Shown here: positions 34,758 through 62,064 of the stretch, piece after piece
Layout of the letters: every line of letters starts with the position of its first letter
Numbering within the stretch: the first letter of the stretch is position 1
Source of the DNA: Pseudosulfitobacter sp. DSM 107133
GTDB lineage: Bacteria > Pseudomonadota > Alphaproteobacteria > Rhodobacterales > Rhodobacteraceae
NCBI RefSeq assembly: GCF_022788695.1
Contig: NZ_CP085158.1
Coordinates: 1 to 64,000, forward strand
Direction: 5' to 3'
DNA length: 64,000 nucleotides
The notes under the pieces: generated by a model
Told to the model about the DNA's origin: nothing
Database searches by the model: none
Seen by the model: the letters and a program-made list of their open reading frames with translations, nothing else
Position numbers and translations under genes: made by a program

Positions 34758-35444
34758 TTAGAACAAGAACTGGCATCCCAACGTCTCGCGCAATGCAGCG
34801 ATCAGCTGGTCCAAAGTTTCGGCACTGGTATAAGTCCCGCCCGTCCGGTCGGCGAGGCACCGGGATGTACTTTCCGACGTATTGTAGTCGTTGTCGGTCT
34901 GCCGGTCCCATGAAAAGAACGTACCGCGCACTTTGAAACCGATCACATGGACGGTGGTGTTAAACCCGTCTGTTGCCAATTCGGCGGCCAGCATACAGGG
35001 CATGCCGCCACAGGTCTCCTTGCCGTCTGTGACCAACACTACGGTCGCGGGTTGCGTTTTGTAATCCAGCGTTTGCGCCGCCAATTTGACGGCCTGCGTC
35101 AACGCGGTGCTGCCACCGGGTTCAAGTGCGTTGATGGCTGAAATGATCAGCGAGGCGGCATTGGCTTCGGGCGCGAACCGCATGTCGACGCCCGAACACT
35201 CATCCGCGCCGTTGGGACCGTAGACGACAAGGCCAAGGCGACGGTTCTGCGCAATTTGCGGCAGTGCATCGGCCATCGCCCGGCGCGCCTCAAAAATGCG
35301 CGGCTCGTCAATGTCGTTGAAGCCCATCTCGGCCATGGAACCCGAACCGTCAACGACGATCATCGCGTCGGCGGCGCAATCGTCTGTCGCCATGGCATTT
35401 GTGGCGCCGAGAAGTGTGAAGATGAAAGTGAGGCATAATCGCAT
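34758..35444 (-). CDS. Secreted von Willebrand factor A domain protein
   Basis: This is a 228-aa protein with a signal peptide (MRLCLTFIFTLLGATNAMA) and a VWA domain. The MIDAS motif is DGSGSM at about residues 32-37, followed by the GGSTALTQAV block and VLVTDGKETC. Several cysteines (CGGMPC, RCLADRTGG, LGCQFLF) suggest disulfides in the periplasm. VWA proteins accompany some PQQ-dehydrogenase clusters (compare MxaC/MxaL), where they may help metal or subunit assembly. That role is only inferred from proximity to pqqABCDE. Confidence 0.85.
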   Translation of the reverse strand: MRLCLTFIFTLLGATNAMATDDCAADAMIVVDGSGSMAEMGFNDIDEPRIFEARRAMADALPQIAQNRRLGLVVYGPNGADECSGVDMRFAPEANAASLIISAINALEPGGSTALTQAVKLAAQTLDYKTQPATVVLVTDGKETCGGMPCMLAAELATDGFNTTVHVIGFKVRGTFFSWDRQTDNDYNTSESTSRCLADRTGGTYTSAETLDQLIAALRETLGCQFLF

Positions 35445-35627
35445 AACGCAAGCGTGTCACGGCACCTTCAAGCTGTCCAGAAATTTGCCGCTCTCAGGCA
35501 TGAGACGATGGTCGGAGGTATCTTCCAAAAGCATCGCGGGCGGGAATGCGCCGACAATGGGAGGCTCTGGTGGGTAAGATCCGCCGTCATTTGAAAATCT
35601 GGTTCATCTCCGAGGTTTGATACCTTA

Positions 35628-35638
35628 GTCTCATAGAC
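35628..35638 (+). promoter_or_regulatory. Candidate island regulatory motif upstream of pqqA
   Basis: GTCT-CAT-AGAC lies 61 bp upstream of the pqqA ATG. It resembles the GTCTAAT-type elements ahead of other island genes (51619, 51669, 53361, 61606). It may be a binding site for the LuxR-type regulator at 42231. Inferred from similarity and spacing. Confidence 0.4.
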
Positions 35639-35698
35639 AATCGCGAGGTCGCGACGAATACTTGAAGCTGAGAAAACGTAACCTGTGGAGGAAACACA

Positions 35699-35803
35699 AT
35701 GGCATGGTCTAAACCGATTATCCGCGAAATTGAATGCGGGATGGAGATCAACATGTACGGCCCGGACGGTGATCGCGAGCAAGACGACGGCGATCTGTTC
35801 TGA
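35699..35803 (+). CDS. pqqA: PqqA, PQQ precursor peptide
   Basis: This is a 34-aa peptide starting MAWSKPIIREIECG. The Glu and Tyr that become PQQ are at Glu16 and Tyr20 (E-I-N-M-Y), exactly the E-x3-Y spacing and position of known PqqA. The RBS GTGGAGGAAACACA precedes the ATG. Beyond Tyr20 it has an unusually long acidic tail (GPDGDREQDDGDLF) compared with the usual 23-29 aa peptides. PqqE crosslinks these residues on PqqD. It is followed at 24 bp by pqqB. Confidence 0.95.
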   Translation: MAWSKPIIREIECGMEINMYGPDGDREQDDGDLF

Positions 35804-35827
35804 TATTTCTGCGCGCGGAGAGTTGCA

Positions 35828-36724
35828 TTGACGTTTCGCGCGCATGTTCTTGGGTCGGCTGCCGGTGGTGGTTTGCCACAGTGGAACTGCGGGTGCGAGA
35901 ATTGCAATCTGGCGCGTGCCGGAACGATACCAGCGCAAACCCAGTCTTCGCTCGCCCTCAGCGCCAATGGCACCGAGTGGGCGGTTTTGAACGCGTCGCC
36001 CGATATTCGGGACCAGATGCATAAAGCCCCGCCGCTGCATCCGAGTGACCTGCGCAAATCCCCGTTGCGGTCTGTCCTGCTCACCAATGGCGATATCGAC
36101 CACATTGCAGGGTTGTTGACCCTGCGCGAGCAACAGGCTTTCACGCTTTTCGCCACGCCTGAAATTCATCGCGTGCTCGCCGAAAATCCGATTTTTAATG
36201 CGCTCCATCCGGACTTCGTCAAACGCATTTCGATTGAGCTGGGCTGCGAGGTCGAAATTGTACCGGGTCTGACGGCGCAGCTGTTTCCGGTGCCGGGCAA
36301 GGTGCCGCTCTATCTGGAAGGTGCGGAAGTCCAAACCGACCTGGAAGGTGAGCAGACGGTCGGGGTACATTTGCGGGCAGGGGGCAAAAACGCATTCTAC
36401 ATCCCCGGCTGTGCGGCGATGCGCGATACGCTTGCGGCGCGGCTGGACGGGGCGGATGCGGTTTTCTTTGACGGGACACTTTGGCAGGACGACGAGATGG
36501 TGCGCGCAGGACTGAGCCAGAAAACCGGGCGGCGGATGGGGCATATGTCCATGTCCGGCCCCGACGGTTCCATCGCTGCCTTCGAAGATATCAAGATTGC
36601 GAAGAAAGTTTTTGTCCATATGAACAATACCAATCCAGTGTTCCGGCCAATGTCGGAAGAGCGCAAAGCTGTGGAAGCCGCAGGATGGATCATTGCGCAA
36701 GACGGGATGGAGCTGGAGATATGA
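35828..36724 (+). CDS. pqqB: PqqB, PQQ biosynthesis metallo-hydrolase-fold protein
   Basis: The 298-aa PqqB belongs to the metallo-beta-lactamase fold and is implicated in oxidation of the PQQ precursor. The N-terminus VLGSAAGGGLPQWNCGCENC is diagnostic, including the CGCENC cysteines. The NGDIDHIAGLLTLRE segment corresponds to the HxDH-type metal region. The start is TTG 35828. It overlaps pqqC by four bases. Confidence 0.95.
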   Translation: MTFRAHVLGSAAGGGLPQWNCGCENCNLARAGTIPAQTQSSLALSANGTEWAVLNASPDIRDQMHKAPPLHPSDLRKSPLRSVLLTNGDIDHIAGLLTLREQQAFTLFATPEIHRVLAENPIFNALHPDFVKRISIELGCEVEIVPGLTAQLFPVPGKVPLYLEGAEVQTDLEGEQTVGVHLRAGGKNAFYIPGCAAMRDTLAARLDGADAVFFDGTLWQDDEMVRAGLSQKTGRRMGHMSMSGPDGSIAAFEDIKIAKKVFVHMNNTNPVFRPMSEERKAVEAAGWIIAQDGMELEI

Positions 36725-37467
36725 CGGCCACGCCCGCCGAATTCGAAGCCCGCCTGCGCCAGATCGGGGCCGAGCGGTATCACGACAAGCATCCGTTTCA
36801 CGACTTGCTGCATGGCGGCGACTGCACGCCCGATCAGGTCCGCGCATGGGTGATCAACAGGTTTTATTATCAGGCCAGCATCCCGATGAAAGATGCCGCT
36901 TTCATGAGCCGTGTCGATGATCCCGCGCTGCGCCGCGCGTGGCGGTCACGCATTGAGGACCACGACGGCACTGACGAGGTCGAGGGCGGCATTGCCCGCT
37001 GGTTGCATCTTGCAGATGCTGTTGGGCTAGACCGCGACTATGTCGCCAGTGCGCGCGGTGTCTTGCCAACCACGCGCTTCGCGGTAGATGCCTACGTGCG
37101 TTTTGTGCGGGACAAGACGCTGCTTGAAGCGGTCGCCGCGTCGCTGACCGAGCTGTTTGCGCCAAAAATTCACGCCGCGCGGATCGAAGGACTGATGGCG
37201 AATTACGCCTTTGCCGACGACACGAGCCTGTCCTATTTCCGCAACCGGCTGACACAGGCGCCCAAGGATGTGGCCTTCGGGTTGGGATGGGTTCTGGAGC
37301 ACGCCGATACTGCCGAGAAACAGGACGCGGTGGCGGCTGCGCTTGAATTCAAGACCGATGTGCTTTGGGCGCAGCTCGATGCGTTACATGCGGCCTATGT
37401 CACGCCTGCGCGTATTCCGCCGGGGGCCTGGGTGCCCGGTTCATACGTTTTGACCCCCGCATCATGA
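36721..37467 (+). CDS. pqqC: PqqC, PQQ synthase
   Basis: The 248-aa PqqC carries out the final cofactor-free eight-electron oxidation to PQQ. It is all-helical with the motifs YHDKHPFHDLLHGG (about 20-33), WVINRFYYQASIPMKDAA (about 43-60), RIEDHDG and TTRFAVDAYVRFV. The start is ATG 36721, overlapping the pqqB stop. The length is normal and the frame intact. Its stop overlaps pqqD. Confidence 0.96.
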   Translation: MTATPAEFEARLRQIGAERYHDKHPFHDLLHGGDCTPDQVRAWVINRFYYQASIPMKDAAFMSRVDDPALRRAWRSRIEDHDGTDEVEGGIARWLHLADAVGLDRDYVASARGVLPTTRFAVDAYVRFVRDKTLLEAVAASLTELFAPKIHAARIEGLMANYAFADDTSLSYFRNRLTQAPKDVAFGLGWVLEHADTAEKQDAVAAALEFKTDVLWAQLDALHAAYVTPARIPPGAWVPGSYVLTPAS

Positions 37468-37748
37468 CGGCGCTCGACGGTCAGGCAGTACCACGGATAC
37501 CGCGCGGCGTGCGGATGCATGATGATACGGTACGCGGCAAAACTGTCTTGCTGGCACCCGAGCGGGTCATCGACCTTGATGCCATCGGACTTGCCATTTT
37601 GCAGCAGATCGACGGTGAGAAAACCATGTCCCAGATTATCGAGACGCTCGCAGCGCTTTATGCCGCACCTGTTGCGCAAATCTCGGAGGATGTGTCCGGG
37701 TATGTGGTGGGCCTGATGGACCGCCGGATACTGGAGATTAAACCATGA
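37464..37748 (+). CDS. pqqD: PqqD, PqqA-binding chaperone
   Basis: The 94-aa PqqD is the RRE-type peptide chaperone that presents PqqA to PqqE. Characteristic segments are VPRIPRGVRMHDDTVRGKTVLLAPERVIDLD and ILQQIDGEKTMSQIIETLAALY. It overlaps pqqC and pqqE by four bases on each side, indicating coupled synthesis. Confidence 0.95.
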   Translation: MTALDGQAVPRIPRGVRMHDDTVRGKTVLLAPERVIDLDAIGLAILQQIDGEKTMSQIIETLAALYAAPVAQISEDVSGYVVGLMDRRILEIKP

Positions 37749-38827
37749 CCGCGCCCGCACCCATCGCCATGCTGGCGGAGCTGACCTATCGCTGTCCACT
37801 GTCGTGCCCCTATTGCTCCAATCCCGTCGAAATGGCGGCGCGGGAGAAGGAGATCTCGACGGAACTCTGGGTCGACGTCTTTCGTCAGGCCGCAGGCCTT
37901 GGCGTGTTGCAACTGCATCTGTCGGGGGGCGAGCCTGCCTCGCGGCGGGATCTGGTTGATCTGGTGGCGGGCGCGCGGGATGCAGGGCTCTATACCAACC
38001 TCATCACCTCGGCCATCGGCCTCACGCAGCGGCGGCTGGCCGAACTGGACGCAGCAGGGCTTGATCATGTGCAGCTGTCCTTGCAAGGCACGGACGCAGA
38101 TATGGCCGACCGGATCGGCGGGTACAAAGGCGGGTTCAAGCGCAAGATGCAGGCAGCGGCGTGGATCGTCGAGGCAGGTTTTCCGCTGACGCTCAACGCT
38201 GTGGTGCATCGCCAGAACCTGCACCAGTTGCCGGAGGCGATCGAGATGGCCGTTGAAATGAAAGCGCGGCGGATCGAAGTTGCGATTGTGCAATTCCACG
38301 GCTGGGCGATGCTGAACCGCAGCGCGATGATGCCGACACGCGCGCAGGCAGACGAGGCCAGCCGCGTCGTAGCTGACGCGCGCAAGCGGCTCAAAGGTCA
38401 GCTGGTCATCGACTATGTGCTGGCGGATTACCACGGCGACTATCCCAAGCGGTGTATGGGCGGATGGGGGCTCTCGGGCCTTAACGTCACGCCTGACGGG
38501 CTGGTGTTGCCCTGTCACGCGGCGCAGACGATCCCCAACCTCGTCTTCGATAACGTAGCGGACAAGCCCCTGTCGGACATCTGGTATCACGGCGCCGCCT
38601 TCAACGCCTATCGCGGCGAGGACTGGATGCAGGAGCCGTGTAAATCCTGCGATCGGCGCAAGCTGGACTTTGGGGGGTGCAGGTGTCAGGCGATGGCGAT
38701 TGCGGGCGATCCGGCGGCCACGGACCCGACCTGCATCAAATCGCCGTTGCATTCACGCATGCAGGAACTGGCGCAAGGGTTTTCAACGGATGACACCGCC
38801 GAACTGGTTTACCGCAAAAGCCCGTAA
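37745..38827 (+). CDS. pqqE: PqqE, radical SAM PqqA peptide cyclase
   Basis: The 360-aa radical SAM/SPASM enzyme makes the Glu-Tyr C-C bond in PqqA. The radical SAM cluster cysteines are in CPLSCPYC (about 18-25), followed by LHLSGGEPASRRD. SPASM-domain cysteines appear in LPCHAAQ and EPCKSCDRRKLDFGGCRCQ near the C-terminus. It ends the pqqABCDE operon, three bases before the convergent kinase gene. pqqF/G-type proteases are not present here and would be supplied elsewhere. Confidence 0.96.
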   Translation: MTAPAPIAMLAELTYRCPLSCPYCSNPVEMAAREKEISTELWVDVFRQAAGLGVLQLHLSGGEPASRRDLVDLVAGARDAGLYTNLITSAIGLTQRRLAELDAAGLDHVQLSLQGTDADMADRIGGYKGGFKRKMQAAAWIVEAGFPLTLNAVVHRQNLHQLPEAIEMAVEMKARRIEVAIVQFHGWAMLNRSAMMPTRAQADEASRVVADARKRLKGQLVIDYVLADYHGDYPKRCMGGWGLSGLNVTPDGLVLPCHAAQTIPNLVFDNVADKPLSDIWYHGAAFNAYRGEDWMQEPCKSCDRRKLDFGGCRCQAMAIAGDPAATDPTCIKSPLHSRMQELAQGFSTDDTAELVYRKSP

Positions 38828-38829
38828 CC

Positions 38830-41022
38830 TCACGAGACACTGCGGAGAAAGTCGAACAGCCTGAGACGGTCGATGGGTTTGGGCATCAGGTTCAACCCCA
38901 TCGAGGCACACTGTTGCGCAAGCGCGCTACTGCGGTCGGCAGAGATCATACGCGTCGGGATTGGCCCGTATTGCTGAATGATCCGTTGGTGCAGCTCGGG
39001 CCCCGACATGCCATCGCCCAACTGGCAATCGAGCAATAGTACATCGGGGACAAGATCGATGTCCCTGAGGATGGCAATTGCCTCCTCACCGTTGAGCGCG
39101 TGAATGACATGGGCGCCCCAGCCTTCGATCATGAGGGATATTGCGTTGGCAAGATCCCCGTCATTCTCCACAAGCAATATAATCTGACCGAGCTTCGGTA
39201 ACTTGGGGCTGTCGCTCATTGGTCTTACGGTCGTTTTTTGGGCTTTGTCACTGCAGAGGATCTTCAGCTCTACCGTAAAACAGCTACCCTTGTCCGGAAT
39301 GGAGCAGAGATGCAGCGGGTGGTTCAGGGACTTGCAAGCCCGTTCGACAATGGCCAGACCCAGACCCAGACCGGCCGCAGAGTTCGCCATATCCAGACGC
39401 TTGAACTCCTGAAAGATCAGTTTCTGATCAGCCTCTGCAATGCCAAAGCCCGTATCCCAGATCTCCATACGGGCCGTGGCCCCGCTGCGCCGCACGCCCA
39501 CAAGAACCTTGCCACTCTGCGTGTACCGGATCGCGTTGGAAATGAGGTTCTGTGCGATGCGCCGCAAATAGCCGGGATCACTGCGCACGGTCAGGCCGCA
39601 GCTCACGATGGTGAGATCCAGCCCCTTGTCCCGTGCTACGGGCGTCAACTCGTCGCTGAGAGGGCCAAGGATGGCGTCCAGCCGCACCGGCTGGATGTCG
39701 AAAGTGGGGCTGGTCGCGTCCAGTTTGGAGATGTCCAGCAAAGCTTCGATGATCTTCTCGACGCTGATCAAGGCTGTTTCGGCCTTGCCGATCACATTGA
39801 GTAGGTCTGGCTGCGTCAACCGGTCCGACACCGAAGCCACAAACAGTTTTGCAGCAGAAAGCGGTTGCAACAGGTCATGGCTTGCAGCAGCGACAAATCG
39901 GGATTTTGACGCATTGGCGCGCTCCGCTTCCGACAAGGCGATCCCCAACTCATTCGTGCGGTCCTGCACGCGCTGTTCCAGCACTTCGTTCATTTCGGCC
40001 AATGATTTCGCCGCAGACCGCTCGGCAGTGACGTCGGTAAAACTCATCACAAAGCCACGGTCCGGCATTTCCTGACCAAAAACGCTAAAGGTCTGGCGGC
40101 CGTTGCGCGTGACTTCAAAAGCAATCGGGGACCGCCCTTCATTGTGGTTGGCCCATCGCACCAGCATGTCGACGTCGAACTGGTCGGAGAAGATGAGCTG
40201 TTTTTCAAGCTGTTCGAGGAGAATGACAAAATTTCTCCCCAATGCTGCTTCCTGAGGGGGCAGATCCAGCAGCTGATTCATCTTCTTGTTCCAGCCCACA
40301 AGATTTTTTGCATGATCAAAAATGCAAACTCCCTGATTGAGATGGTCAAGCGTGGCTTGAAGGATCTGCGCCTGGCGGTCGCGCATCCGGTCCTGTTCTT
40401 TTCGTTCCAGCCGGATAATTTCGGTGACGTCCGTCTGCAGGATAACGGTGCCGCGACGGGCTGTGCGGTGTTCGCTGACCTGTATCCAGCGGTCATGTTT
40501 CAGACTGACATTGAACACCACATGGTTGTCGCGGTGCCGCTCGGTGCGCCGATTGGCCCACTGGGCGGGTGTCACATCAGGCGGCAGTGCGAGGGAGCTG
40601 CTTCGCGAAACCAGGTCGACGTAGTCGTTGAAAGGCAACCCTTCGACCAATCGCATCTCCACGTCTTTCATATCGCGGCAAAAACGGCTGTTGAACAGGA
40701 CGAGTAGGTCGTTGGAATCAAACAGCGCAAAACCTTCGTTGATCGTCTCAATAGCCTCACCCAGATTGGTGCGGGCGGTTTCGGTCTCGCGGTTGGCCTC
40801 TTCAAGCTGTGCATTGGATTCCTGCAACAGATCGAGTGTGCGCTCCAGATCAATGGTCCGTTCCTTGACCTGCATCTCAAGCAGGGCGGCCCGTTCGAAC
40901 TGGGCATAGGCAAGACCGGACTGTTCGTTTTTTTGCTCCACGCGGCGCATGAGAACTTTGGAAATCAGCAGCAGCTTTTCATTCTGGCGCTCGATGCTGT
41001 CGAGTGGGTTGATCAATGACAT
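38830..41022 (-). CDS. Hybrid histidine kinase with PAS domains and receiver (NahK/ErcS'-like)
   Basis: This is a 730-aa cytoplasmic hybrid sensor. An N-terminal coiled coil (about 1-90) precedes two PAS-like domains (about 90-205 and 220-345). A HisKA box with the phospho-His follows in FVAAASHDLLQPL (about 385). The HATPase has NLISNAIRYTQSG, WDTGFGIAE and GLGLGLAIVERA. The C-terminal receiver has Asp in VLLLDCQLGDGMSG. No transmembrane helix is seen. It follows the FIST gene by 5 bp. The arrangement resembles NosP-NahK/ErcS' next to quinoprotein alcohol dehydrogenase genes in Pseudomonas, so it likely feeds the LuxR-type regulator at 42231. Confidence 0.88.
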   Translation of the reverse strand: MSLINPLDSIERQNEKLLLISKVLMRRVEQKNEQSGLAYAQFERAALLEMQVKERTIDLERTLDLLQESNAQLEEANRETETARTNLGEAIETINEGFALFDSNDLLVLFNSRFCRDMKDVEMRLVEGLPFNDYVDLVSRSSSLALPPDVTPAQWANRRTERHRDNHVVFNVSLKHDRWIQVSEHRTARRGTVILQTDVTEIIRLERKEQDRMRDRQAQILQATLDHLNQGVCIFDHAKNLVGWNKKMNQLLDLPPQEAALGRNFVILLEQLEKQLIFSDQFDVDMLVRWANHNEGRSPIAFEVTRNGRQTFSVFGQEMPDRGFVMSFTDVTAERSAAKSLAEMNEVLEQRVQDRTNELGIALSEAERANASKSRFVAAASHDLLQPLSAAKLFVASVSDRLTQPDLLNVIGKAETALISVEKIIEALLDISKLDATSPTFDIQPVRLDAILGPLSDELTPVARDKGLDLTIVSCGLTVRSDPGYLRRIAQNLISNAIRYTQSGKVLVGVRRSGATARMEIWDTGFGIAEADQKLIFQEFKRLDMANSAAGLGLGLAIVERACKSLNHPLHLCSIPDKGSCFTVELKILCSDKAQKTTVRPMSDSPKLPKLGQIILLVENDGDLANAISLMIEGWGAHVIHALNGEEAIAILRDIDLVPDVLLLDCQLGDGMSGPELHQRIIQQYGPIPTRMISADRSSALAQQCASMGLNLMPKPIDRLRLFDFLRSVS

Positions 41023-41027
41023 GGGTG

Positions 41028-42197
41028 TCAGGCCTCGCCGCCATGGGTTTCGGCATAGATCGCCAGACCGGACATGGTGTGGTTGACGTGAAGCGGCCCG
41101 ATTTGTTCGCCATAGGTTGAAAAGCCGATGACCTTGTGACGGGTCAGTACGTCCGACACCTGGCGGGTGCTCTGTTTTTGCTCGGCTTCAATGCGGCGCA
41201 GAATGCAGTCACATCCTACGATGTCCGTCAGCGTGCCCATTCTGGACAGCTCGGTCAGCTTCTCGTCCAGATGTTCGGCCATGTCCCGCGGCTCTGCCAC
41301 AGTCAGCACCATGCCTTCGTCTATGGCAGAGAAGAACACCAACTCGCCTTTTGGCGTGACCTGCTGGATCGCGCGGACATGATGGGCACCGCCGATACGC
41401 ACGACGACCGGATGGGAGGCGAAAGTGAACTGGTCGAGCTGGTCAGGGTTCGTACCGACCAATCGCGCATATTCGCGCGCGGCCGGCTCTGCGTTGATGG
41501 ATTTCACGATGCGCCTGTCGGGATCGGCGTCGGTGACGACCATCTGAATATCCGTGGGGACAAGGTGATCAATGCTGAAGACCTGCGTTTTATGATCTGT
41601 CTGGATCATCGTCAGAACGGCAGCGTTTTGGCGCACCCGTCCATTAAATGACACGAACGTCTGTTTGAATCTGGTGCCGTCTCCCGCCGATCCGCCAAAC
41701 AGCGGCATGTCCCGCAGCGCAGGCGAGATCGCAGCCGTCAGGGTATCCTCGCGCAGGGAAAGGCCGTCCACCACGAGAAAGGCAAACCCATTCAGTTTTT
41801 TGGGGTTTCTATCGCGCAAGGCAACCCGGTCCTGCGCAATGCGGTCAACCGCGCTTTGGGTCTCGCGACCGTCAAGGTCTTCGACGAGGATCGAAATGCT
41901 GTCAAAATGTGCGGCGGGGTAGCCAAGTCCGAGGATCGTTCCCTCCTCATAGCCTCCCGCGCCGATTTCTCCGGCGGTGGTACAGGCTACAATATCAGTT
42001 GTGGGAAATACTGCGTTGAGTCTCTCTGAGACAGCAGCAAAATCGACATTCGGGGTCACAAAGACCGTGAGCAGGGCCAAGGGAGCGTCCCCCAGCTTTT
42101 CGCGCAGATGCGCGACCGGATCGTCGCATTTTACCGAGACCTGGGCCTGAGATAATACATGCACGTCCCGCCCGTTGCTCTGGATCTTTTCGGTCAT
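41028..42197 (-). CDS. FIST-domain sensor protein (NosP-like)
   Basis: This 389-aa protein is made of FIST_N (about 30-230) and FIST_C (about 235-375) domains: VFPTTDIVACTTAGEIGAGGYEEGTI, FGGSAGDG and the C-terminal CDCILRRIEAE block. The start is set at ATG 42197 (MTEKIQSNG). FIST proteins are small-ligand sensors, and the NosP subgroup binds heme and senses nitric oxide to inhibit a neighbouring hybrid kinase. The direct genetic linkage to such a kinase supports a sensor-kinase pair. Heme binding here is inference. Confidence 0.85.
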   Translation of the reverse strand: MTEKIQSNGRDVHVLSQAQVSVKCDDPVAHLREKLGDAPLALLTVFVTPNVDFAAVSERLNAVFPTTDIVACTTAGEIGAGGYEEGTILGLGYPAAHFDSISILVEDLDGRETQSAVDRIAQDRVALRDRNPKKLNGFAFLVVDGLSLREDTLTAAISPALRDMPLFGGSAGDGTRFKQTFVSFNGRVRQNAAVLTMIQTDHKTQVFSIDHLVPTDIQMVVTDADPDRRIVKSINAEPAAREYARLVGTNPDQLDQFTFASHPVVVRIGGAHHVRAIQQVTPKGELVFFSAIDEGMVLTVAEPRDMAEHLDEKLTELSRMGTLTDIVGCDCILRRIEAEQKQSTRQVSDVLTRHKVIGFSTYGEQIGPLHVNHTMSGLAIYAETHGGEA

Positions 42198-42230
42198 TCT
42201 GATCACCCCGTTCCGGTCACGATAGAGGTG

Positions 42231-46849: not shown

Positions 46850-46850
46850 C

Positions 46851-53975: not shown

Positions 53976-54461
53976 ATGACGAAAGTAGAAATGACGGTCA
54001 ACGGGAAGCAGGTGTCCCGCGACGTGGAGGGGCAGACGCTTTTGGTGTCGATGCTGCGTGAGGATCTGCGACTGACGGGCACCCATGTCGGGTGCGATAC
54101 ATCGCAGTGCGGCGCATGCGTGGTTCATGTGAACGGAAAATCTGTGAAAGCCTGCACCATGTTCGCAATCGAAGCCGATGGTGCGGATATCAAGACGATC
54201 GAAGGGATGGCAGGCTCGGACGGATCGCTCAGCGTGATCCAGAGCGCGTTTCAGGAGCATCACGGATTGCAGTGCGGATTCTGCACACCGGGCATGGTGA
54301 TGACGGCGGCCAACCTTCTCAAGGACAATCCGAAACCGACAGAGGCCGAAGTGCGCCACTATCTGCAAGGCAATATCTGCCGTTGCACGGGATACCACAA
54401 CATCGTCAAGGCGATCATGGCCGCATCCGGTCAGGATGTCAGCGCCATCGCTGCAGAATAG
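53976..54461 (+). CDS. CoxS-like [2Fe-2S] subunit
   Basis: This is a 161-aa iron-sulfur subunit of a xanthine-oxidase-family enzyme. The N-terminal plant-type cluster has cysteines in [24 protein letters not shown] (about 40-62, several Cys). The C-terminal cluster is in CGFCTPGM (about 99-106) and ICRCTG (about 136-141). It passes electrons from molybdenum to FAD. The RBS is GGGAGAAACGAC. Confidence 0.95.
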
Positions 54462-54521: not shown

Positions 54522-56894
54522 ATGCCGAAGGACACCGGAATTGGCGCATCGACACGCCGCCGCGAAGACGTTCGTTTCCTCAAGGGAAAAGGACAATACA
54601 CCGATGATATCCCGCCCGCCCATGATCAGGCGGCGGCGGTCTTCGCCCGCTCGACCGTGGCAAACGGCGTTATCAAATCAATCGACACATCCGTTGCGGA
54701 AAGCATGCCCGGCGTGCTGGCGGTTTTTACCGGTGCCGATTTCGCCGATGTTGGCGGCAACCCCGCAGGCTGGCTTATCAACAGCCGCGATGGCGAGCCG
54801 ATGAAGGAGCCCAAGCGTCCCGTGCTGGCCCACGGCAAGGTCCGTCATGTGGGCGATGCCTATGCCGCGGTCATTGCCGAGACGGAAAAACAGGCGCGTG
54901 ATGCGGTAGAAGCCATCGAGGCCGACATCGAGGAACTGCCCGCCATCATGGACGTGAAGGCGGCGCTCACATCGGACAATTTCGTACATGACGAGATTGG
55001 CACGAACCAGTGTTTCGACTGGGGCTGGATCGAAGACAACCGACGGGCCACTGATGATGCGATCAAAGGTGCGGCGCATGTCACCACGCTCGAGCTGGTC
55101 AACAACCGGTTGGTGCCCAACGCGATGGAACCGCGCTGCTCCATGGCAAGCTACAAAGAGAGCAGCGATGAATATACGCTGCACACCACATCGCAAAATC
55201 CTCATCTGACCCGGTTGCTGATTTCGGCCTTCGTGATGGGTATTCCCGAAAACAAGCTGACGGTAATCGCGCCTGACGTGGGCGGCGGCTTTGGCTCCAA
55301 GATTTACCACTACGGCGAAGAGGCACTGGTGCTGGCGGCGGCGAAACGCGTGGGTCGCACGGTCAAGTGGACGTCCGACAGGACCGAAGCGTTTCTGACC
55401 GATGCCCATGGCCGTGACCATGTGACCACAATTGAACTGGCCACAGATGCCGAAGGCAACTTTCTGGCCTTCCGCACCGAGACCTATGCAAACGTCGGTG
55501 CCTACCTGTCAAACTTTGCCACTGCCACGCCGACCTTTCTGCACGGCACGTTGATGGCGGGCAACTATACGGTGCCGAATGTCTATGTGAACGTCAAAGC
55601 GGTGTTTACAAACACCGCGCCGGTCGACGCCTACCGCGGTGCCGGTCGGCCCGAAGCGACCTATTCTCTGGAGCGGGTCATCGACAAATGCGCACGCGAG
55701 TTGGGCATGGACCCGATTGCCCTGCGGCGCAAAAACTTCATCAAGCCGGACCAGTATCCTTTCGCCTCCGCGGCCGGTCTGGAATACGATTCCGGCAATT
55801 ACGACGCCCTGATGGACAAGATGGAGGAAGTTGCGGACGTTGCGGGTTTCGCTGAGCGCCGCAAGGCGTCCGAGGCCAAAGGCCTGCTGCGCGGATTTGG
55901 TGTGAACGCCTATGTCGAGGCTTGCGGCATTGCGCCCTCCAACCTTGTCGGCGTGCTGGGCAGCCGTGTGGGTCTCTATGATGCGGCGACCGTGCGGGTG
56001 AACGCCACGGGCAACCTCAGTGTCATGGTCGGCGCGCACAGCCACGGCCAGGGCCATGAAACCGTGTTCCCGCAGATTGTCGCCGATATGCTGGGCATCG
56101 ACGCCCAAAGCATCGACATCGTGCATGGCGATACGTCCAAGATCCCCTTCGGGATGGGCACCTACGGGTCGCGTAGCCTTGCGGTGTGTGGCTCTGCCGT
56201 TGTCCGCGCCACCGAAAAGATCATCGCCAAAGCCAAGAAGATCGCAGGACATATGCTGGAAGCTGCCGAGACCGATATCGAGCTCAAGGACGGTCAATTC
56301 TCGGTCGTGGGAACGAACAAGGGCGTTTCCTTTGGCGAGGTAGCCCTCAAGGCCTACATCCCGCATAATTTCCCGATTGAAGACATCGAGCCGGGGCTGG
56401 AGGAAACAGCCTTCTACGATCCGGCCAACTTCACGTTTCCGTCAGGCGCTTACTGCTGTGAGGTCGAGGTTGATCCGGATACGGGCAAGGTGCGGGTAGA
56501 CCGCATGACAGCCGTGGATGATTTCGGCAATGTCATGAACCCGATGATCGTGACCGGCCAAGTGCATGGCGGTCTGGGGCAGGGCATCGGCCAGGCGCTG
56601 CTGGAAGCGGCGCGTTATAACGAAGATGGCCAGTTGGAGAGCGCGTCCTACATGGACTATGCCATGCCGCGCGCGGACGATCTGCCCTTCTATATCGTTG
56701 ATCACGGTCAGGGAACACCCTGCACCCACAACCCGCTGGGGGCCAAAGGCTGCGGTGAAGCCGGTGCCATCGGATCCCCGCCCACAGTTGTGAACGCTGT
56801 GATCGACGCCCTTCAATCGGGCGGCAAGAACGTCACACACATCGACATGCCGTTGACTCCACACCGTGTGTGGTCAGCCATGAACAACGCGTAA
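54522..56894 (+). CDS. CoxL-like molybdenum subunit, form II
   Basis: This is a 790-aa molybdopterin subunit. The active-site loop AYRGAGR (residues 370-376) identifies a form II enzyme. True CO dehydrogenases (form I) carry AYxCSFR with the catalytic cysteine, which is missing. Other recognisable blocks are GIGASTRRREDVRFLKGKGQYTDD, DVGGGFGSKIYHYGEE and KGCGEAGAIGSPP. In this island it is best read as an aldehyde-oxidising enzyme for the dehydrogenase product. CO oxidation is unlikely. The substrate is not established. Confidence 0.92.
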   Translation: MPKDTGIGASTRRREDVRFLKGKGQYTDDIPPAHDQAAAVFARSTVANGVIKSIDTSVAESMPGVLAVFTGADFADVGGNPAGWLINSRDGEPMKEPKRPVLAHGKVRHVGDAYAAVIAETEKQARDAVEAIEADIEELPAIMDVKAALTSDNFVHDEIGTNQCFDWGWIEDNRRATDDAIKGAAHVTTLELVNNRLVPNAMEPRCSMASYKESSDEYTLHTTSQNPHLTRLLISAFVMGIPENKLTVIAPDVGGGFGSKIYHYGEEALVLAAAKRVGRTVKWTSDRTEAFLTDAHGRDHVTTIELATDAEGNFLAFRTETYANVGAYLSNFATATPTFLHGTLMAGNYTVPNVYVNVKAVFTNTAPVDAYRGAGRPEATYSLERVIDKCARELGMDPIALRRKNFIKPDQYPFASAAGLEYDSGNYDALMDKMEEVADVAGFAERRKASEAKGLLRGFGVNAYVEACGIAPSNLVGVLGSRVGLYDAATVRVNATGNLSVMVGAHSHGQGHETVFPQIVADMLGIDAQSIDIVHGDTSKIPFGMGTYGSRSLAVCGSAVVRATEKIIAKAKKIAGHMLEAAETDIELKDGQFSVVGTNKGVSFGEVALKAYIPHNFPIEDIEPGLEETAFYDPANFTFPSGAYCCEVEVDPDTGKVRVDRMTAVDDFGNVMNPMIVTGQVHGGLGQGIGQALLEAARYNEDGQLESASYMDYAMPRADDLPFYIVDHGQGTPCTHNPLGAKGCGEAGAIGSPPTVVNAVIDALQSGGKNVTHIDMPLTPHRVWSAMNNA

Positions 56895-56907: not shown

Positions 56908-57696
56908 ATGTATGCATTTGACATAGAACGTCCAACGACAGTTGCAGAAGCGGTGAACGCGCTGAAAACGGATGAAGCCCAGCCTCTTGGCGGCGGGCAA
57001 ACCCTGATCCCCACGCTCAAGGCACGGCTCGCTGCCCCCAGCAAGTTGGTCTCCCTCAGCGCGATTGCGGAAATGATCGGAATATCGCGCGAAGGATCAA
57101 CGATCCGCATCGGCGGTGCGACGACGCACGGGCAGGTCGCGACAGAGTTGGCTGAGAGCTATCCCGCACTCGGCTATCTTGCCTCCAAGATCGGCGATCC
57201 TGCGGTGCGCAACCGCGGGACGATAGGCGGATCGGTGGCCAACAACGATCCCGCAGCCTGCTATCCGGCAGCGTGCCTCGCCTCCGGTGCGACCATCACC
57301 ACCAACACCCGCGACATCGCGGCGGACGACTTCTTTCTGGGCATGTTCGAAACGGCGTTGGAGGAGGACGAGATTGTGACGGCGGTGACGTTCCCCGTGC
57401 CGCAAAAAGCGGACTACCAGAAGTTCGAGCAGCCCGCCTCGCGGTTCCCGCTGGTGGGTGTGTTTGTGGCCAAGCACGACGACGGTGTGCGGGTCGCTGT
57501 CACCGGCGCTTCCGAGAGCGGCGTTTTCCGGTGGACCGAAGCAGAGGAGGCGCTGTCGGCGGATTTCTCCGCAGGTGCGCTGGACGGGTTGAGTGTGGAC
57601 GCAGACGGGATGATCACCGACCTGCACGGCGATGGCGCCTACCGCGCCCATCTGATCAAGGTTCTGACCGGACGGGCCGTTACAGCCTCACGCTAA
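56908..57696 (+). CDS. CoxM-like FAD subunit
   Basis: This is the 262-aa FAD-binding subunit of the molybdo-flavoprotein. Motifs are PLGGGQTLIPTLKARLAAPS (about 30-49) and RNRGTIGGSVANNDPAACYPA (about 99-119), the family's two FAD motifs. It begins 13 bp after the large subunit. A terminator follows at 57722. The gene order G-S-L-M differs from the classic M-S-L order of CO-oxidiser operons. Confidence 0.94.
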   Translation: MYAFDIERPTTVAEAVNALKTDEAQPLGGGQTLIPTLKARLAAPSKLVSLSAIAEMIGISREGSTIRIGGATTHGQVATELAESYPALGYLASKIGDPAVRNRGTIGGSVANNDPAACYPAACLASGATITTNTRDIAADDFFLGMFETALEEDEIVTAVTFPVPQKADYQKFEQPASRFPLVGVFVAKHDDGVRVAVTGASESGVFRWTEAEEALSADFSAGALDGLSVDADGMITDLHGDGAYRAHLIKVLTGRAVTASR

Positions 57697-57721: not shown

Positions 57722-57748
57722 GCCTCCGCATAATGCGGGGGCTTTTTT
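57722..57748 (+). terminator. Terminator after the CoxGSLM-like operon
   Basis: GCCTCCGC (57722-57729) pairs with GCGGGGGC (57735-57742; one G-U) over ATAAT and is followed by TTTTTT (57743-57748). The T tract touches the stop of the convergent apbE gene. Confidence 0.85.
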
Positions 57749-58637
57749 ATGCAGGGGCCTCGACCCTCGAGACATCGCCTTGATCACTAACAAGCGTGAT
57801 CCGCCGGATCCCGAATGTCCCCACCGCCGCACGGATATCCTCAAGGCGGGCCATTGTCAGCGCTGTGGAAAACCCGTCCGCCATGGTTGCGGTCGCCGCC
57901 TCGACCGAGACTGTAGACCAACGCGGTTTTGCGTGCCCATGCAGGATATGCCCTTGACCGCCCAGCGGAACGGCCTTGGGGCTGGAGGTGGCGATGGCCG
58001 ACGAGGTGAGCGTGCGCGTGCCGATCATCCCGATTTCGGGGTCACTGATGCCCAGCCTCCACGGCCCGCCGGTGCCTCGAAATTCACCGATATTGACCAG
58101 CGTGCGCTCGAGCCCCGCATCCCGCAGCGCCTCGGCCACCAGATCTGTCGCGAACCCTTGGGCGATTCCGTTAAAGGTCAACGCCTGTCCTTCGCCCAAC
58201 GTAACCGACGCAGCACTATGGCGCACACGCGACCAGTCGATGAGCGCGCGCGCGGCCTCAGGTGGTTGCCCTTCGGCTAATGCGCGCCACAGCGGCTGAA
58301 CGGTGGGGTCAAATAGCCCGCCGGTTGCTGCGTGAACCTGTGTGCAGGCCTGCATCAACCTGCGAAACATCACATCGGGCGCATCAAGGTGCCCGGTCCG
58401 GTTCAACCGCGAGACTGTGGAGGCCGGATCGAACAGGTCGAATTGCGCCATAACGGCATCCAGAGACCCACGGGCGCGGTCCAATGCGGGCTCGGCAATC
58501 TCTGCCGGGGCATGCAGGGTTATGTCAACCTCCGCCCCCAGGGCACGACCCTGCCAGCGGTGGATCTGCGCCCGCGCGGGCGTCGCCAGCATGCAGGCGG
58601 CCGAGATAGACAAGAAACGCCGACGATTCAGTTTCAT
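57747..58637 (-). CDS. apbE: ApbE, FAD:protein FMN transferase
   Basis: This 296-aa exported enzyme has a Tat-like signal (NRRRFLSISAACMLATPARA). Conserved blocks are GRALGAEVDITLHAPAE (about 30-46), FDPTVQPLWRAL, GEGQALTFNGIAQGFATDLVAEALRDAG, LVNIGEF and VSVEAATATMADGFSTALTMAR. ApbE transfers FMN from FAD onto Thr/Ser of target flavoproteins in the periplasm. It overlaps the NosR-like gene by four bases, which points to that protein as its substrate. Confidence 0.93.
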   Translation of the reverse strand: MKLNRRRFLSISAACMLATPARAQIHRWQGRALGAEVDITLHAPAEIAEPALDRARGSLDAVMAQFDLFDPASTVSRLNRTGHLDAPDVMFRRLMQACTQVHAATGGLFDPTVQPLWRALAEGQPPEAARALIDWSRVRHSAASVTLGEGQALTFNGIAQGFATDLVAEALRDAGLERTLVNIGEFRGTGGPWRLGISDPEIGMIGTRTLTSSAIATSSPKAVPLGGQGHILHGHAKPRWSTVSVEAATATMADGFSTALTMARLEDIRAAVGTFGIRRITLVSDQGDVSRVEAPA

Positions 58638-60736
58638 TGCGCGGCCACCTTATGCAGTCTGCGCCCGTTCCGCGCCGCCACGATCAGCGGCACGCATTGT
58701 TTTGGGTCATCGTGGATCGTGACGCAATCAAGGCATTGGAAACATTCGGAATACTGGATTTCGCCGGTTTTCTTGATGGCTCCGTAGGCGCATTTGACGC
58801 GGCACAACTGGCAGGGCGATCCGCATTCCGCCCGCCTGTCGATCCATTTGCGGGTGCGTATCAATCCGCCGATCGCCATGACGGCGCCCAGTGGGCAAAT
58901 GTAGCGGCAGAACCCTTTGAACACCACCATGGACAGCACCAAAAGCCCCACCGCATAAGCCACATAATACCATTCGCGGACAAAGAACGTGGTCACTGCG
59001 GTCTTGAACGGCTCGACTTCGATGGCTTTGTCCAATCGCGCAGGGGCGGTGAACATGATCGCCACAAGTGCGAACAAGACGGCGTATTTGATCCATTTCA
59101 GGCGGTCGTCCCACGCATCGGGCACGTCAATCTGGCGGATGCGCAACAGTCTTGCGAGGTGGTGGGCGAACTCTTGCATCGCCCCGAAGGGACACAACCA
59201 GCCGCAAAACAGACCTCGCCCCCAGAGCACAAACCCGAGGATCGTGACAGCCCAGATGACAAGCGAGAAGGGATCGTAGAGTAAAAACGCCAGTGATCCG
59301 CCCTCGGCCACCGTACGGATCACCCCGAGCGGCGTAACGATCGACAACTGCCCTTGCCCCCACCAGCCGACAAACCCGATGACAAAGGCCAGAATCCCGA
59401 GGCGGATCGGTGTGAAATATCTATGCCCGGCCAGGCGGTTCAGGCTAAGGCCCAGCAGTGCGATCAATCCGACAAGAAAGACGGCGAGGATAATCAGATC
59501 CGCCGCACGGTTGCGCAACGCATCTACCCACGCAGGCGTCGGTTTGACCGCTTCGAGACGTTTGAAAAACCGCGCGTCCGTGCTGTGGGTGATGTCTACC
59601 GAGGCTGAACCGATTTCGGGTTTGAACATGCCATGCTCGCGCAGCGCCTTGATCCGCAGTGTCCATTCCGCAGTAGGATCGAACCCCAGCCGCCTGTCCG
59701 TGCGCAGGATCAGGGCAGCACCGTCGTGCAGTTCGTCGGGCAGGGCGTCATTCAGCTCAATGTAGATGTCGGCATCTCGCAGGGCTATCGGAAAACCGCC
59801 TTGTTCCGCGCTGATCAGATCGGGTGAGGTGTTGCGGATGAATTCATCGGTGACCAACCCGTGCCGTGCCGTCTCGATTACAAGAATGGGTTCGTCGCTG
59901 GTGGAGATACCCATAAACCCCTTCAGTTCAGCGAGGCTGCCGGGAGACAGCACCGCGCGGGCGATCGAGGGCGGGCCTATGTCCACAACCCAAAGATCGA
60001 GGAAGGTGCCGTCGGGATTGTCTCTTGCTTCCGGATCATCGTCGGCCCAGATCTTCCCTGCAAATTCAGCGTTTATCTCCGCATTCGACACGCGGTGACG
60101 GGTGACCAGTCCTTGTCTGACCAGATCCTCCCAGTCCAATGGCTCATCATAGGTAAGGTCCGGATAGGCGGGCGGACCTGTCGAGACGCCGCTCATCTTT
60201 TCGCGTGCGACCTTCAGCGTCGCGGCCAGCACGCTTTCATGGGCGATGCGCACGGAGGCGGTCGCTTTGGTGACGCCGTCAAGATAGACCAGCGCGGATC
60301 CGTCAGTTCCCGCGCCATAAGGCGTCCCGACCACCAGACTTTCGGTAATCGAATGGCCACGATATTGCTCGAAGAACTTGTGGAACGGTGCCTGTCCCAG
60401 CCCTGAGACAAAGATCGGCTCGTTGTGGGAGATCAGTTTGACGTCGAGAAAACGAGCTTCAAGGTCAAGGACCACCAGCACGTTGATAGGCGCACCGGAA
60501 AAGCCGGGCAGCGGTGCCATCGGCTCAGTCTCGAACACAAATCCTGCCTCGGCACCGCCCGAGTTCAGAAGCTGCCACACGCCTTCATCGTTGATCCTCT
60601 CGCCCAGCGACATCGGCGGAACGATGTAGGGCTCCAACGTCTCTCGATCCAGCGGTTCGGCGGCCAGCGCAATGCACGACACCAGCCATAAAGTGACCGC
60701 ACCAAGCACGATGTGTAATGTCCACTGGCGTTGCAT
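58634..60736 (-). CDS. NosR/NirI-family membrane iron-sulfur flavoprotein
   Basis: This is a 700-aa protein with an N-terminal export signal (LHIVLGAVTLWLVSCIALAA), a periplasmic FMN-binding domain (about 80-190) with the flavinylation-like stretch DGVTKATAS (153-161, Thr159 likely), and about five transmembrane helices. CGWLCPFGA and CRYICPLGA motifs (CxxxCP) are present, as is a C-terminal 4Fe-4S region (CQLCRVKCAYGAI...ECFQCLDC). NosR normally supplies electrons for N2O reduction, but no nosZ is nearby. With apbE and the PQQ genes it could be an electron conduit for the island. That role is inferred. Confidence 0.88.
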   Translation of the reverse strand: MQRQWTLHIVLGAVTLWLVSCIALAAEPLDRETLEPYIVPPMSLGERINDEGVWQLLNSGGAEAGFVFETEPMAPLPGFSGAPINVLVVLDLEARFLDVKLISHNEPIFVSGLGQAPFHKFFEQYRGHSITESLVVGTPYGAGTDGSALVYLDGVTKATASVRIAHESVLAATLKVAREKMSGVSTGPPAYPDLTYDEPLDWEDLVRQGLVTRHRVSNAEINAEFAGKIWADDDPEARDNPDGTFLDLWVVDIGPPSIARAVLSPGSLAELKGFMGISTSDEPILVIETARHGLVTDEFIRNTSPDLISAEQGGFPIALRDADIYIELNDALPDELHDGAALILRTDRRLGFDPTAEWTLRIKALREHGMFKPEIGSASVDITHSTDARFFKRLEAVKPTPAWVDALRNRAADLIILAVFLVGLIALLGLSLNRLAGHRYFTPIRLGILAFVIGFVGWWGQGQLSIVTPLGVIRTVAEGGSLAFLLYDPFSLVIWAVTILGFVLWGRGLFCGWLCPFGAMQEFAHHLARLLRIRQIDVPDAWDDRLKWIKYAVLFALVAIMFTAPARLDKAIEVEPFKTAVTTFFVREWYYVAYAVGLLVLSMVVFKGFCRYICPLGAVMAIGGLIRTRKWIDRRAECGSPCQLCRVKCAYGAIKKTGEIQYSECFQCLDCVTIHDDPKQCVPLIVAARNGRRLHKVAAQ

Positions 60737-60763
60737 TGATCGAGATTAGAAGCAGGTGGAAAA

Positions 60764-61612
60764 ATGCTCTATGCGACTATGGTAGGGCTTCGCTATTTCG
60801 CCTTGGGATTGGCGCGGGATTTGTGCATGGTAATTGCTATGCCTGACCACAACCCTCACCCCTCATTGCCGGTCGTGGTGATATCACTTTTCGGGCTGTA
60901 TTTGATCTGGGTCCTTGCGGCATGGGTAACAAGTGATGGTGCGGTCCTTCCCGGCCCTGCCGAGGTCTGGCGCGTCGGCTTGCTCGAGGGCCGATCGGGT
61001 GAGTTGCAGCGGCACATCTGGGCAACGCTCAAGCGGGTTGCCATGGCCTTCGCGCTTGCGATGGTTTTTGGCACGGTGGCGGGGCTGTTGTTGGGGTTCT
61101 ATCCGTATCTCAACCGCTGGTTCGGGCCATGGCTGATCGTGCTTTTGAATATTCCCGCATTGGTTGTTATCGTTTTGTGCTACCTCTGGATCGGTCTGAA
61201 CGAGGTTGCTGCGGTTACTGCTGTCGCCCTCAATAAAATGGCGATGGTGGCTGTGACCTTGCGCGAAGGGGTGCAGGCCCTGGACCCTAAACTTGGCGAA
61301 ATGGCACGTGTCTTCCGGATGCGGCCCATACAGCGCCTTCGCCATGTGACACTACCCCAGCTTTGGCCCTATTTTGCTGCCAGCACGCGCAACGGGTTGG
61401 CGATTATTTGGAAAATTGTGCTCGTGGTCGAGTTTCTGGGCCGCAGCGATGGCATCGGGTTTCAAATTCACCTCTATTTCCAATTATTCGAGACCCGCTA
61501 TGTTCTGGCCTACGCACTGAGTTTTGTGGTTCTGATGCTGGCGTTGGAATACGGGGTCCTACAATCGTGGGAACGACATGCAACACAGTGGCGCCGTGGG
61601 TCTTTGGTCTAA
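60764..61612 (+). CDS. ABC transporter permease (SsuC/TauC-like)
   Basis: This is a 282-aa inner-membrane permease with about six helices and the EAA loop EMARVFRMRPIQRLRHVTLPQLWPYF (about 185-210). The start is uncertain: ATG 60764 gives a 25-residue extension before PDHNPHPS; ATG 60827 or 60839 is possible. The class matches the binding protein (45875) and ATPase (46851), 13 kb away, and no other partner exists in the window. It is divergent from the NosR-like gene, only 27 bp apart. Confidence 0.88.
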   Translation: MLYATMVGLRYFALGLARDLCMVIAMPDHNPHPSLPVVVISLFGLYLIWVLAAWVTSDGAVLPGPAEVWRVGLLEGRSGELQRHIWATLKRVAMAFALAMVFGTVAGLLLGFYPYLNRWFGPWLIVLLNIPALVVIVLCYLWIGLNEVAAVTAVALNKMAMVAVTLREGVQALDPKLGEMARVFRMRPIQRLRHVTLPQLWPYFAASTRNGLAIIWKIVLVVEFLGRSDGIGFQIHLYFQLFETRYVLAYALSFVVLMLALEYGVLQSWERHATQWRRGSLV

Positions 61613-61620
61613 TCGACCAA
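61604..61620. promoter_or_regulatory. TTGGTC-TAATC-GACCAA inverted repeat
   Basis: A perfect 6-bp-arm inverted repeat spans the stop codon of the permease gene and lies 64-80 bp upstream of the cytochrome ATG at 61684. It contains the GTCTAAT core shared with sites near 51669 and 53361. Confidence 0.5.
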
Positions 61621-61683
61621 CGTCGCATTTGGCTTCGAGTTATGCTGTTGTAGCGTGCGGTTGGATTTCCGGAGGAACACAAC

Positions 61684-62064
61684 ATGCGGCTCGCATCACC
61701 AATGCTCATTGCAACGCTTCTTTCACTGGTAGCACCGATTGTGCAGGCAGAAGGTAACGCCGAGAAGGGCGCAAAGGTTTTTCGAAAGTGCAAGGCATGT
61801 CACGCAGTTGGCGCGCTTGCAAAAACTGGCACCGGACCGGTCCTGACCGGTGTCATGGATGCTGCCGCGATGAATGATCCCGACTTCCAGTATTCGGATG
61901 CTTTGATCAAAGCGGCACAGGACGGGCTGGTCTGGGATGAGGAAACACTCGCCGCCTTTCTGGCAAAGCCGCGCGATTTCTTGCGCGGAACGCAAATGTC
62001 GTTCTCTGGCTTGCGCAAGGAATCGGAAATTGAAGACATTATCGCGTATCTTGCTCAGCAGTGA
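61684..62064 (+). CDS. Cytochrome c (class I, c2-like)
   Basis: This is a 126-aa soluble cytochrome with a signal peptide (MRLASPMLIATLLSLVAPIVQA). The heme site is CKACH (about 51-55) and the distal Met is in GTQMSFSGL (about 102-110). RBS CGGAGGAACACAAC lies upstream of the ATG. It may carry electrons from the PedF-like cytochrome or from the dehydrogenase to the terminal oxidase. It ends the metabolic island. Confidence 0.92.
   Translation: MRLASPMLIATLLSLVAPIVQAEGNAEKGAKVFRKCKACHAVGALAKTGTGPVLTGVMDAAAMNDPDFQYSDALIKAAQDGLVWDEETLAAFLAKPRDFLRGTQMSFSGLRKESEIEDIIAYLAQQ

Follow-up and report, generated by a model that had tools for sequence, protein, structure and literature searches.

Can a lanthanide-type alcohol-oxidising trait be carried between bacteria as plasmid cargo, together with the genes for its cofactor? 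This question is raised by a block of about 27 kb in the window, that is, the whole stretch of 64,000 nucleotides analysed here (bases 1-64000 of contig NZ_CP085158.1, hereafter C5, of Pseudosulfitobacter sp. DSM 107133, whose genome comprises 5.21 Mb in 13 contigs). The initial annotation described the block as a self-contained alcohol-oxidation island dependent on pyrroloquinoline quinone (PQQ), lying on a mobilisable plasmid and able to transfer a complete trait in one step. Our analysis makes a more limited reading highly probable, namely that the block is a ped/exa-type PQQ alcohol-oxidation cluster of the lanthanide class and forms cargo of a RepABC plasmid, where it stands beside the genes for relaxase and coupling protein; that this plasmid is at most mobilised in trans; and that the cluster has moved over evolution. 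If this is correct, lanthanide-type alcohol oxidation and cofactor synthesis travel jointly as plasmid cargo among marine Roseobacteraceae.

The block contains a PQQ synthesis operon, with pqqA to pqqE in order on a single strand (pqqB and pqqD through an annotated homologue), and a gene for a PQQ-dependent dehydrogenase:

35699-35803, plus strand: pqqA, precursor peptide of 34 amino acids (TIGR02107, 36.6 bits, cut-off 20).
35828-36724, plus strand: pqqB (homologue annotated PqqB in L020, a near-identical plasmid copy).
36721-37467, plus strand: pqqC (PF03070, TENA/PqqC family; annotated in L020).
37464-37748, plus strand: pqqD (homology to, and position in, the annotated copy L020).
37745-38827, plus strand: pqqE (TIGR02109, 559.6 bits, cut-off 381).
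43886-45652, minus strand: exaA, PedH/ExaF-type PQQ alcohol dehydrogenase with the motif GWDYDG (TIGR03075, 764 bits, cut-off 480; best structures 6zcv and 6zcw).

In the whole genome, a single gene exceeds the TIGR03075-family cut-off and a single pqqE exceeds its own, and both lie on C5. A second pqq operon in the genome was rejected, since just one pqqE is over the cut-off. The best solved-structure matches of the dehydrogenase, 6zcv and 6zcw (quinoprotein ethanol dehydrogenase, which we take to be PedH), have GWDFDG aligned with GWDYDG of the window enzyme, while 1flg reads AWDFSG at this place. The window enzyme has an aspartate two residues past the catalytic aspartate, and this second aspartate is a mark of lanthanide use. 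All 89 rows of a dehydrogenase tree, which are the closest relatives by selection, contain GWD[YF]DG (82 with Y, seven with F). By its signature aspartate the dehydrogenase is predicted to belong to the lanthanide (PedH/ExaF) class, in agreement with the lanthanide link first proposed, and its activity would probably depend on such a metal.

Near exaA, genes matching the PedA1, PedA2, PedB, PedC and PedF models stand side by side, all over their cut-offs:

47471-48262, minus strand: PedC-type ATP-binding cassette (ABC) permease (TIGR03861, over cut-off).
48259-48975, minus strand: PedB-type ABC ATPase (TIGR03864, over cut-off).
48972-49421, minus strand: conserved protein, likely secreted, no family matched (kept in 46 of 63 fully flanked relatives).
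49446-50417, minus strand: PedA2-type beta-propeller (TIGR03866, over cut-off).
50414-51574, minus strand: PedA1-type substrate-binding protein (TIGR03863, over cut-off).
51738-52442, plus strand: cytochrome c550 PedF with one CxxCH (TIGR04494, 159 bits, cut-off 122).
52444-53346, plus strand: PedG/MxaJ-like periplasmic binding protein (PF00497).

The remaining genes of the block include a sensor and regulator module, a molybdenum hydroxylase and further transport and redox proteins:

34758-35444, minus strand: VWA-domain protein, likely signal peptide (PF13519; annotated VWA protein in relatives).
38830-41022, minus strand: hybrid PAS histidine kinase, NahK/ErcS'-like (NF041831, 388.6 bits, below cut-off 1500; PAS_7, HisKA, HATPase_c, Response_reg).
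41028-42206, minus strand: NosP/FIST-type sensor (NF041558, 374.1 bits, below cut-off 450; FIST, FIST_C).
42231-42929, minus strand: LuxR-type response regulator, ErdR/AgmR-like (NF041830, 155.6 bits, below cut-off 390).
45875-46849, plus strand: NMT1-type substrate-binding protein (PF09084).
46803-47462, plus strand: ABC ATPase adjoining the NMT1-type protein (the start annotated in a relative corresponds to about 46851 here).
53423-53941, plus strand: CoxG-like protein (PF06240).
53976-54461, plus strand: molybdenum hydroxylase, small (2Fe-2S) subunit (PF01799, PF00111; no NCBIfam model over cut-off).
54522-56894, plus strand: molybdenum hydroxylase, large subunit with motif AYRGAGR (PF20256, PF02738; no NCBIfam model over cut-off).
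56908-57696, plus strand: molybdenum hydroxylase, flavin adenine dinucleotide (FAD) subunit (PF00941).
57747-58637, minus strand: ApbE flavin transferase (PF02424).
58634-60736, minus strand: NosR/NapH-like membrane protein with motif DGVTKAT (NF046105, 446 bits, below cut-off 1000; Fer4_5).
60764-61612, plus strand: ABC permease (PF00528), right end of the shared block.

The permease at 60764-61612 may belong with the NMT1-type binding protein and the ATPase encoded at 45875-47462. Every part named in the initial annotation (pqqABCDE, dehydrogenase, electron carriers, ABC genes, sensor module and an aldehyde-oxidase-like enzyme, here the molybdenum hydroxylase) was recovered by family-model and homology matches. 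In the proposed working of the cluster, PqqA-E would make PQQ, and the periplasmic dehydrogenase, with PQQ and a lanthanide, would convert alcohols to aldehydes. Electrons would then pass to PedF and on to cytochrome c oxidase, while the NosR/NapH-like protein, flavinylated by ApbE, may provide another connection to the membrane. The molybdenum hydroxylase is a candidate for aldehyde oxidation in the cytoplasm, and the NosP, NahK-like and ErdR-like module would presumably switch the cluster.

The description of the block as self-contained, and of the trait as complete in one step, is not borne out. The identified block genes include none for maturing cytochrome c, for making the molybdenum cofactor or for a terminal oxidase; these were not searched for elsewhere in the genome. 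TonB receptors (PF00593) gave three matches genome-wide, on contigs C1 and C2 and none on C5. None of the block genes is a demonstrated lanthanide importer, and for Pseudomonas putida part of a review (PMC12997753) lists PedB as an ATPase of the efflux type.

The location of the block on a plasmid rests on the following genes at the start of the contig:

1-1356, plus strand: ParA/RepA-type partition ATPase (Pfam AAA_31), its first base being the contig start.
2603-3883, plus strand: RepC of the RepABC module (PF03428, 206.7 bits).

C5 is a contig of 135.5 kb that opens at the ParA-family gene and has RepC at 2.6 kb, and is thus a plasmid, as first described; a chromosomal window was rejected on account of the size of the contig. 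A profile search of the genome's contigs also located RepC near 2.3-2.5 kb on C2, C4, C6, C7 and C8, which fits finished plasmids written from their replication genes.

Ahead of the block, two transfer genes were identified:

30068-32311, plus strand: MobA/VirD2-type relaxase (PF03432, 49.5 bits, cut-off 24.6).
32308-34311, plus strand: VirD4-type coupling protein (PF02534, 285.9 bits).

In three near-identical Sulfitobacter plasmids, genes of a type IV secretion system (T4SS) follow the block. On C5, none of the ten T4SS proteins of the Sulfitobacter plasmid pSpoCB-2 has a match, while the relaxase and coupling protein, serving as positive controls, do match; the names VirB1-VirB11 for these ten proteins were partly assigned here, the record itself naming VirB2, VirB3, VirB9 and VirB10. 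Similarly, VirB4 is not on C5, and the VirB4 matches of the genome are on C4, C6, C7 and C8. A conjugative plasmid would have relaxase, coupling protein and mating-pair genes on one replicon, which C5 does not; a mobilisable one would need a relaxase and, in the same cell, a compatible mating apparatus that works. C5 has the relaxase and coupling protein and none of the ten secretion proteins, so that by itself it is at most mobilisable, in trans. The most likely helper would be the matching VirB system of plasmid C6, which carries homologues of all ten pSpoCB-2 proteins (10 of 10, at 92-99% identity) and thereby makes mobilisation of C5 by C6 plausible; the C5 and C6 coupling proteins are 80% and the relaxases 69% identical. 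The T4SS of C4 was rejected as natural partner because the VirB4 of C4 shares 44% identity with the pSpoCB-2 protein, as against 96% for C6.

The block proper extends from 34758 to 61612, ending at the permease. Three Sulfitobacter plasmids (L020-L022; 132, 239 and 396 kb) match C5 from 26725 to 61641 at 98-99%, apart from an inserted element of the IS5 family. The extent of about 27 kb first assigned is hence real except for its last gene, a cytochrome c placed outside the block because homology to the three plasmids stops at 61641. The genes at and beyond the two edges are:

34534-34761, plus strand: truncated tyrosine recombinase (Pfam, 21.6 bits, below gathering score 27).
61684-62064, plus strand: cytochrome c, CycA-like (NF043008, 76 bits, below cut-off 240), outside the shared block.
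63080-64000, plus strand, running past the window: second RepC-like gene (PF03428, 79 bits), in a patch shared at 97% with C4.

The cytochrome c gene has no match in the 41.7-kb stretches of L020-L022; a cytochrome 57% identical to it adjoins pqqA in another plasmid, THAF37. The two borders first proposed, an integrase fragment and a replication module, both exist as genes, and the former stands at the left edge. Up to 34644 its DNA corresponds to the beginning of an intact integrase of Sulfitobacter sp. BSw21498, and that integrase adjoins an IS91 transposase after the coupling protein. In plasmids of Sulfitobacter sp. SK012 and Octadecabacter sp. SW4, different genes follow the coupling protein. 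Such variety after the coupling protein gives this place the look of a cargo site, and the block itself looks like cargo beside the relaxase and coupling-protein genes. An empty site was sought, and no matching right-hand flank was found among the plasmids compared, so that no exact insertion point can be assigned.

The right-hand RepC module was rejected as block border because it is part of a 2.1-kb patch (C5 62157-64267, with the RepC-like gene and a hypothetical gene) that is 97% identical to plasmid C4 of the same cell. Further to the right, 24 kb of C5 (65384-89282) are 99.95% identical to plasmid pSMR1-7 of Pseudosulfitobacter pseudonitzschiae. Judged by these matches, C5 to the right of the block is a patchwork. 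The pSMR1-7 counterpart is annotated with coenzyme A (CoA) ligase, thiolase, acyl-CoA dehydrogenase and ABC genes.

Where else the cluster occurs was surveyed in plasmids and genomes. By tblastn, relatives of the dehydrogenase were found in 567 of 72,556 plasmid records, a set that may omit those closest to the window's genome; by best place, three were at ≥99%, 61 at 80-90%, 21 at 60-80% and 482 below 60% identity. Neighbour genes of the block recur on plasmids of Tateyamaria, Sulfitobacter, Phaeobacter and Pseudosulfitobacter, the Phaeobacter plasmid stretch being without regulator, NosP and kinase after exaA and the THAF37 plasmid without the molybdenum hydroxylase at the corresponding place. 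For genomes, the best 80 of 587 confirmed relatives, which are close kin by selection, were taken, and neighbours were counted within 10-kb flanks at the 63 fully flanked loci, 17 short-flank loci being dropped. The genes most often kept were YVTN (60 of 63), PedA1 (59), PedG (57), PedF (56), PedB (49) and PedC (49), followed by the regulator (44), kinase (35) and NosP (34). Five plasmid-backbone control genes were found at none of these 63 loci.

In the family sample of 198 genomes, a survey in which part of the first-look candidates were scored, the dehydrogenase had a match in 42, of which 40 were at ≥78% identity; in the host genus it was over cut-off in one of six genomes. Chromosome-sized contigs, defined by our own threshold of ≥700 kb, which megaplasmids could pass, hold 21 of the 80 genome loci. 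The cluster is thus found both on chromosome-sized contigs of the family and on several plasmids whose neighbouring genes differ, which supports the mobility first supposed. The dehydrogenase tree is of the 'quick' kind and has 89 rows, of which 59 carry no label and nine are plasmid rows, four of these being near-copies. On it, five changes are required to account for the plasmid and chromosome labels, three of them forced by starred branches, compared with 7.8-7.9 in shuffles. The label is clustered, yet it has switched repeatedly between plasmid and chromosome, and in evolutionary terms the cluster is mobile, having passed between chromosomes and plasmids in Roseobacteraceae.

Several observations weigh against reading the block as mobile cargo with the working proposed above. 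Firstly, the labels are clustered on the tree (four and 10 of 500 shuffles were as low), so that plasmid/chromosome switches are limited. Along with the 21 loci on contigs ≥700 kb, this would be in keeping with an old cluster that is inherited mainly by vertical descent and has its place on a stable secondary replicon, transfer being of little weight. Further, six family genomes combine ≤8 contigs with a match at ≥78%, and in three of them the match lies beyond base 900,000 of the contig, a position taken as a chromosome sign. However, such inheritance is very unlikely to be the main story in view of the 98-99% identity across 35 kb with Sulfitobacter plasmids of three sizes, the occurrence in one of six genomes of the genus and 40 of 198 of the family, and other carriers that are plasmids with other neighbours. 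Secondly, other genes of the block are rarer near the dehydrogenase (pqqE 8 of 63 loci, ApbE 12, NosR-like protein 17, hydroxylase large subunit 10, permease 8 and VWA protein 1), although the 10-kb flanks are too short to separate absence from distance. Thirdly, the match of the VirB8-like protein on C6 is split into two pieces that lie in different frames (L136, 16624-17273), so the C6 secretion system may be broken. Fourthly, the kinase, NosP, regulator, NosR-like, hydroxylase and CycA-like proteins are below the NCBIfam cut-offs and are named by likeness; the scores for NosP, NahK/ErcS' and ErdR, and for NosR of nitrous oxide reduction, all fall short of their models. The flavin mononucleotide (FMN) motif of NosR reads GAT. 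In the NosR-like protein of the block it reads KAT, and the pattern sought is absent from eight of the 29 matched stretches.

Finally, the IS5 element may have altered regulation:

42982-43820, minus strand: IS5-family insertion, transposase in two frames, with a CTAG target duplication on both sides.

It separates the regulator genes from exaA, with 52 bases between it and the response-regulator start. The initial annotation did not list it, and of the four near-identical copies compared the window alone carries it. By cutting the regulator genes off from exaA, it could have left the cluster silent or misregulated in this strain. The intact target duplication and the absence of the element from the other three plasmids are in accord with this, and loss does occur, as an internal stop interrupts the dehydrogenase in two of the 40 family relatives. 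We nevertheless consider a silent cluster improbable, because the block genes read in the neighbour survey are without internal stop, copies that lack the element share 98-99% identity with the block DNA, and the transposase is on the strand of the regulator, so that outward transcription is possible.

The PQQ genes may also serve an enzyme on another replicon. Contig C3 encodes (L017, 4890-7502) a membrane-bound PQQ dehydrogenase of the glucose/quinate family (TIGR03074, 961 bits, cut-off 833). It is possible, though doubtful, that the plasmid is a mobile source of PQQ whose pqqABCDE switches on this C3 enzyme. Acquiring one plasmid would in that case bring two dehydrogenases into action, each on a different replicon, and losing it would silence both. 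In a stronger form, supply of PQQ to the C3 enzyme would be the main use of the plasmid operon and alcohol oxidation one of two uses, a suggestion that we regard as equally tentative. In its favour, the only pqqE of the genome over cut-off is on C5, and the membrane enzyme is over cut-off in four of six genomes of the host genus, among which pqqE occurs in the window's genome alone, so that three of the other five have the enzyme without pqqE over cut-off. Against it, pqqA-E lie within the alcohol dehydrogenase block and do not adjoin the membrane enzyme, and another genome of the genus (G001) has pqqE with neither the membrane enzyme nor exaA over cut-off. Further, PQQ import is known in many bacteria that have PQQ enzymes and do not make PQQ, according to part of PMC12124388; the membrane enzyme need not rely on C5, and a genome without pqqE need not have an inactive enzyme.

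A similar pattern was seen in the family, assuming for all joint counts over the 198 genomes that the three surveys, in each of which part of the first-look candidates were scored, drew the same genomes. Among the 40 genomes with the alcohol dehydrogenase, pqqE was over cut-off in 23 and not in the other 17. In the 23, dehydrogenase and pqqE were ≤30 kb apart on one contig in 13, farther apart in two and on different contigs in eight. Three of the 17 (G109, G178 and G197) are near-complete, with ≤8 contigs, and there are drafts among the rest. In 20 further genomes pqqE is present and this dehydrogenase is not. The membrane PQQ dehydrogenase was over cut-off in 13 family genomes, six with and seven without pqqE. 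The dehydrogenase genomes without pqqE over cut-off (17 of 40, and seven of 13 for the membrane enzyme) hint at PQQ scavenging or at draft gaps.

Two further features of C5 were noted apart from the block. The plasmid backbone contains a YhaV-type toxin gene (10328-10846), and between 12546 and 20804 two adjacent tyrosine recombinase genes (15986-18609) stand between a strawberry-notch-type NTPase-domain open reading frame and a matching C-terminal helicase-domain open reading frame. The arrangement looks as if the recombinase genes had split one strawberry-notch-type gene.

In the literature, no paper was found that presents the block as a plasmid-borne lanthanide trait in Roseobacteraceae; subscription papers and preprints were outside the search. 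The main text of PMC13386836, on Sulfitobacter plasmids, contains no PQQ, pyrroloquinoline, alcohol or methanol, and the word plasmid is absent from the part of PMC11996626, on marine lanthanide metabolism, that was available. PQQ biosynthesis on pSpoCB-2 of Sulfitobacter pontiacus CB2047 is mentioned in a portion of PMC9044938, which states that the plasmid may be conjugative.

The closest counterpart of the block is on pSpoCB-2, where the same block follows the coupling protein and is 98-99% identical; pSpoCB-2 has its own T4SS operon, whereas C5 has none of the ten proteins, and C5 differs also by the IS5 insertion and a different right side. With regard to the exa cluster, 1flg, which we take to be the Pseudomonas aeruginosa quinoprotein ethanol dehydrogenase, has serine at the lanthanide aspartate of the window enzyme. 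The exa genes nosP, nahK/ercS', erbR, exaA and exaB of P. aeruginosa are listed as ped homologues in part of PMC12997753, which reviews the ped cluster. As described there, the ped cluster of P. putida KT2440 (PedE/PedH) has, like the window, PQQ dehydrogenase, PedF, PedG-like, PedA1, PedA2, PedB and PedC, and also shares AgmR-like regulator, NosP-like and NahK-like (PedS1) proteins (PMC12997753). Unlike KT2440, the window has one dehydrogenase, of the lanthanide type and on a plasmid, and adds pqqABCDE, the molybdenum hydroxylase, the NosR/NapH-like protein with ApbE and the NMT1-type ABC set. Flavinylated NapH-like clusters described in a section of PMC8238504 combine an ExaA gene with a NapH-like protein as a proposed electron route, as in the window; in these the flavoprotein stands where other microbes use cytochrome c, whereas the window has a PedF gene as well. 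This kind of cluster is known and widespread, and PQQ genes on one near-identical plasmid are already in print. Compared with these systems, the modest new point is the place of the block beside transfer genes, and the supply of PQQ across replicons is a testable idea.

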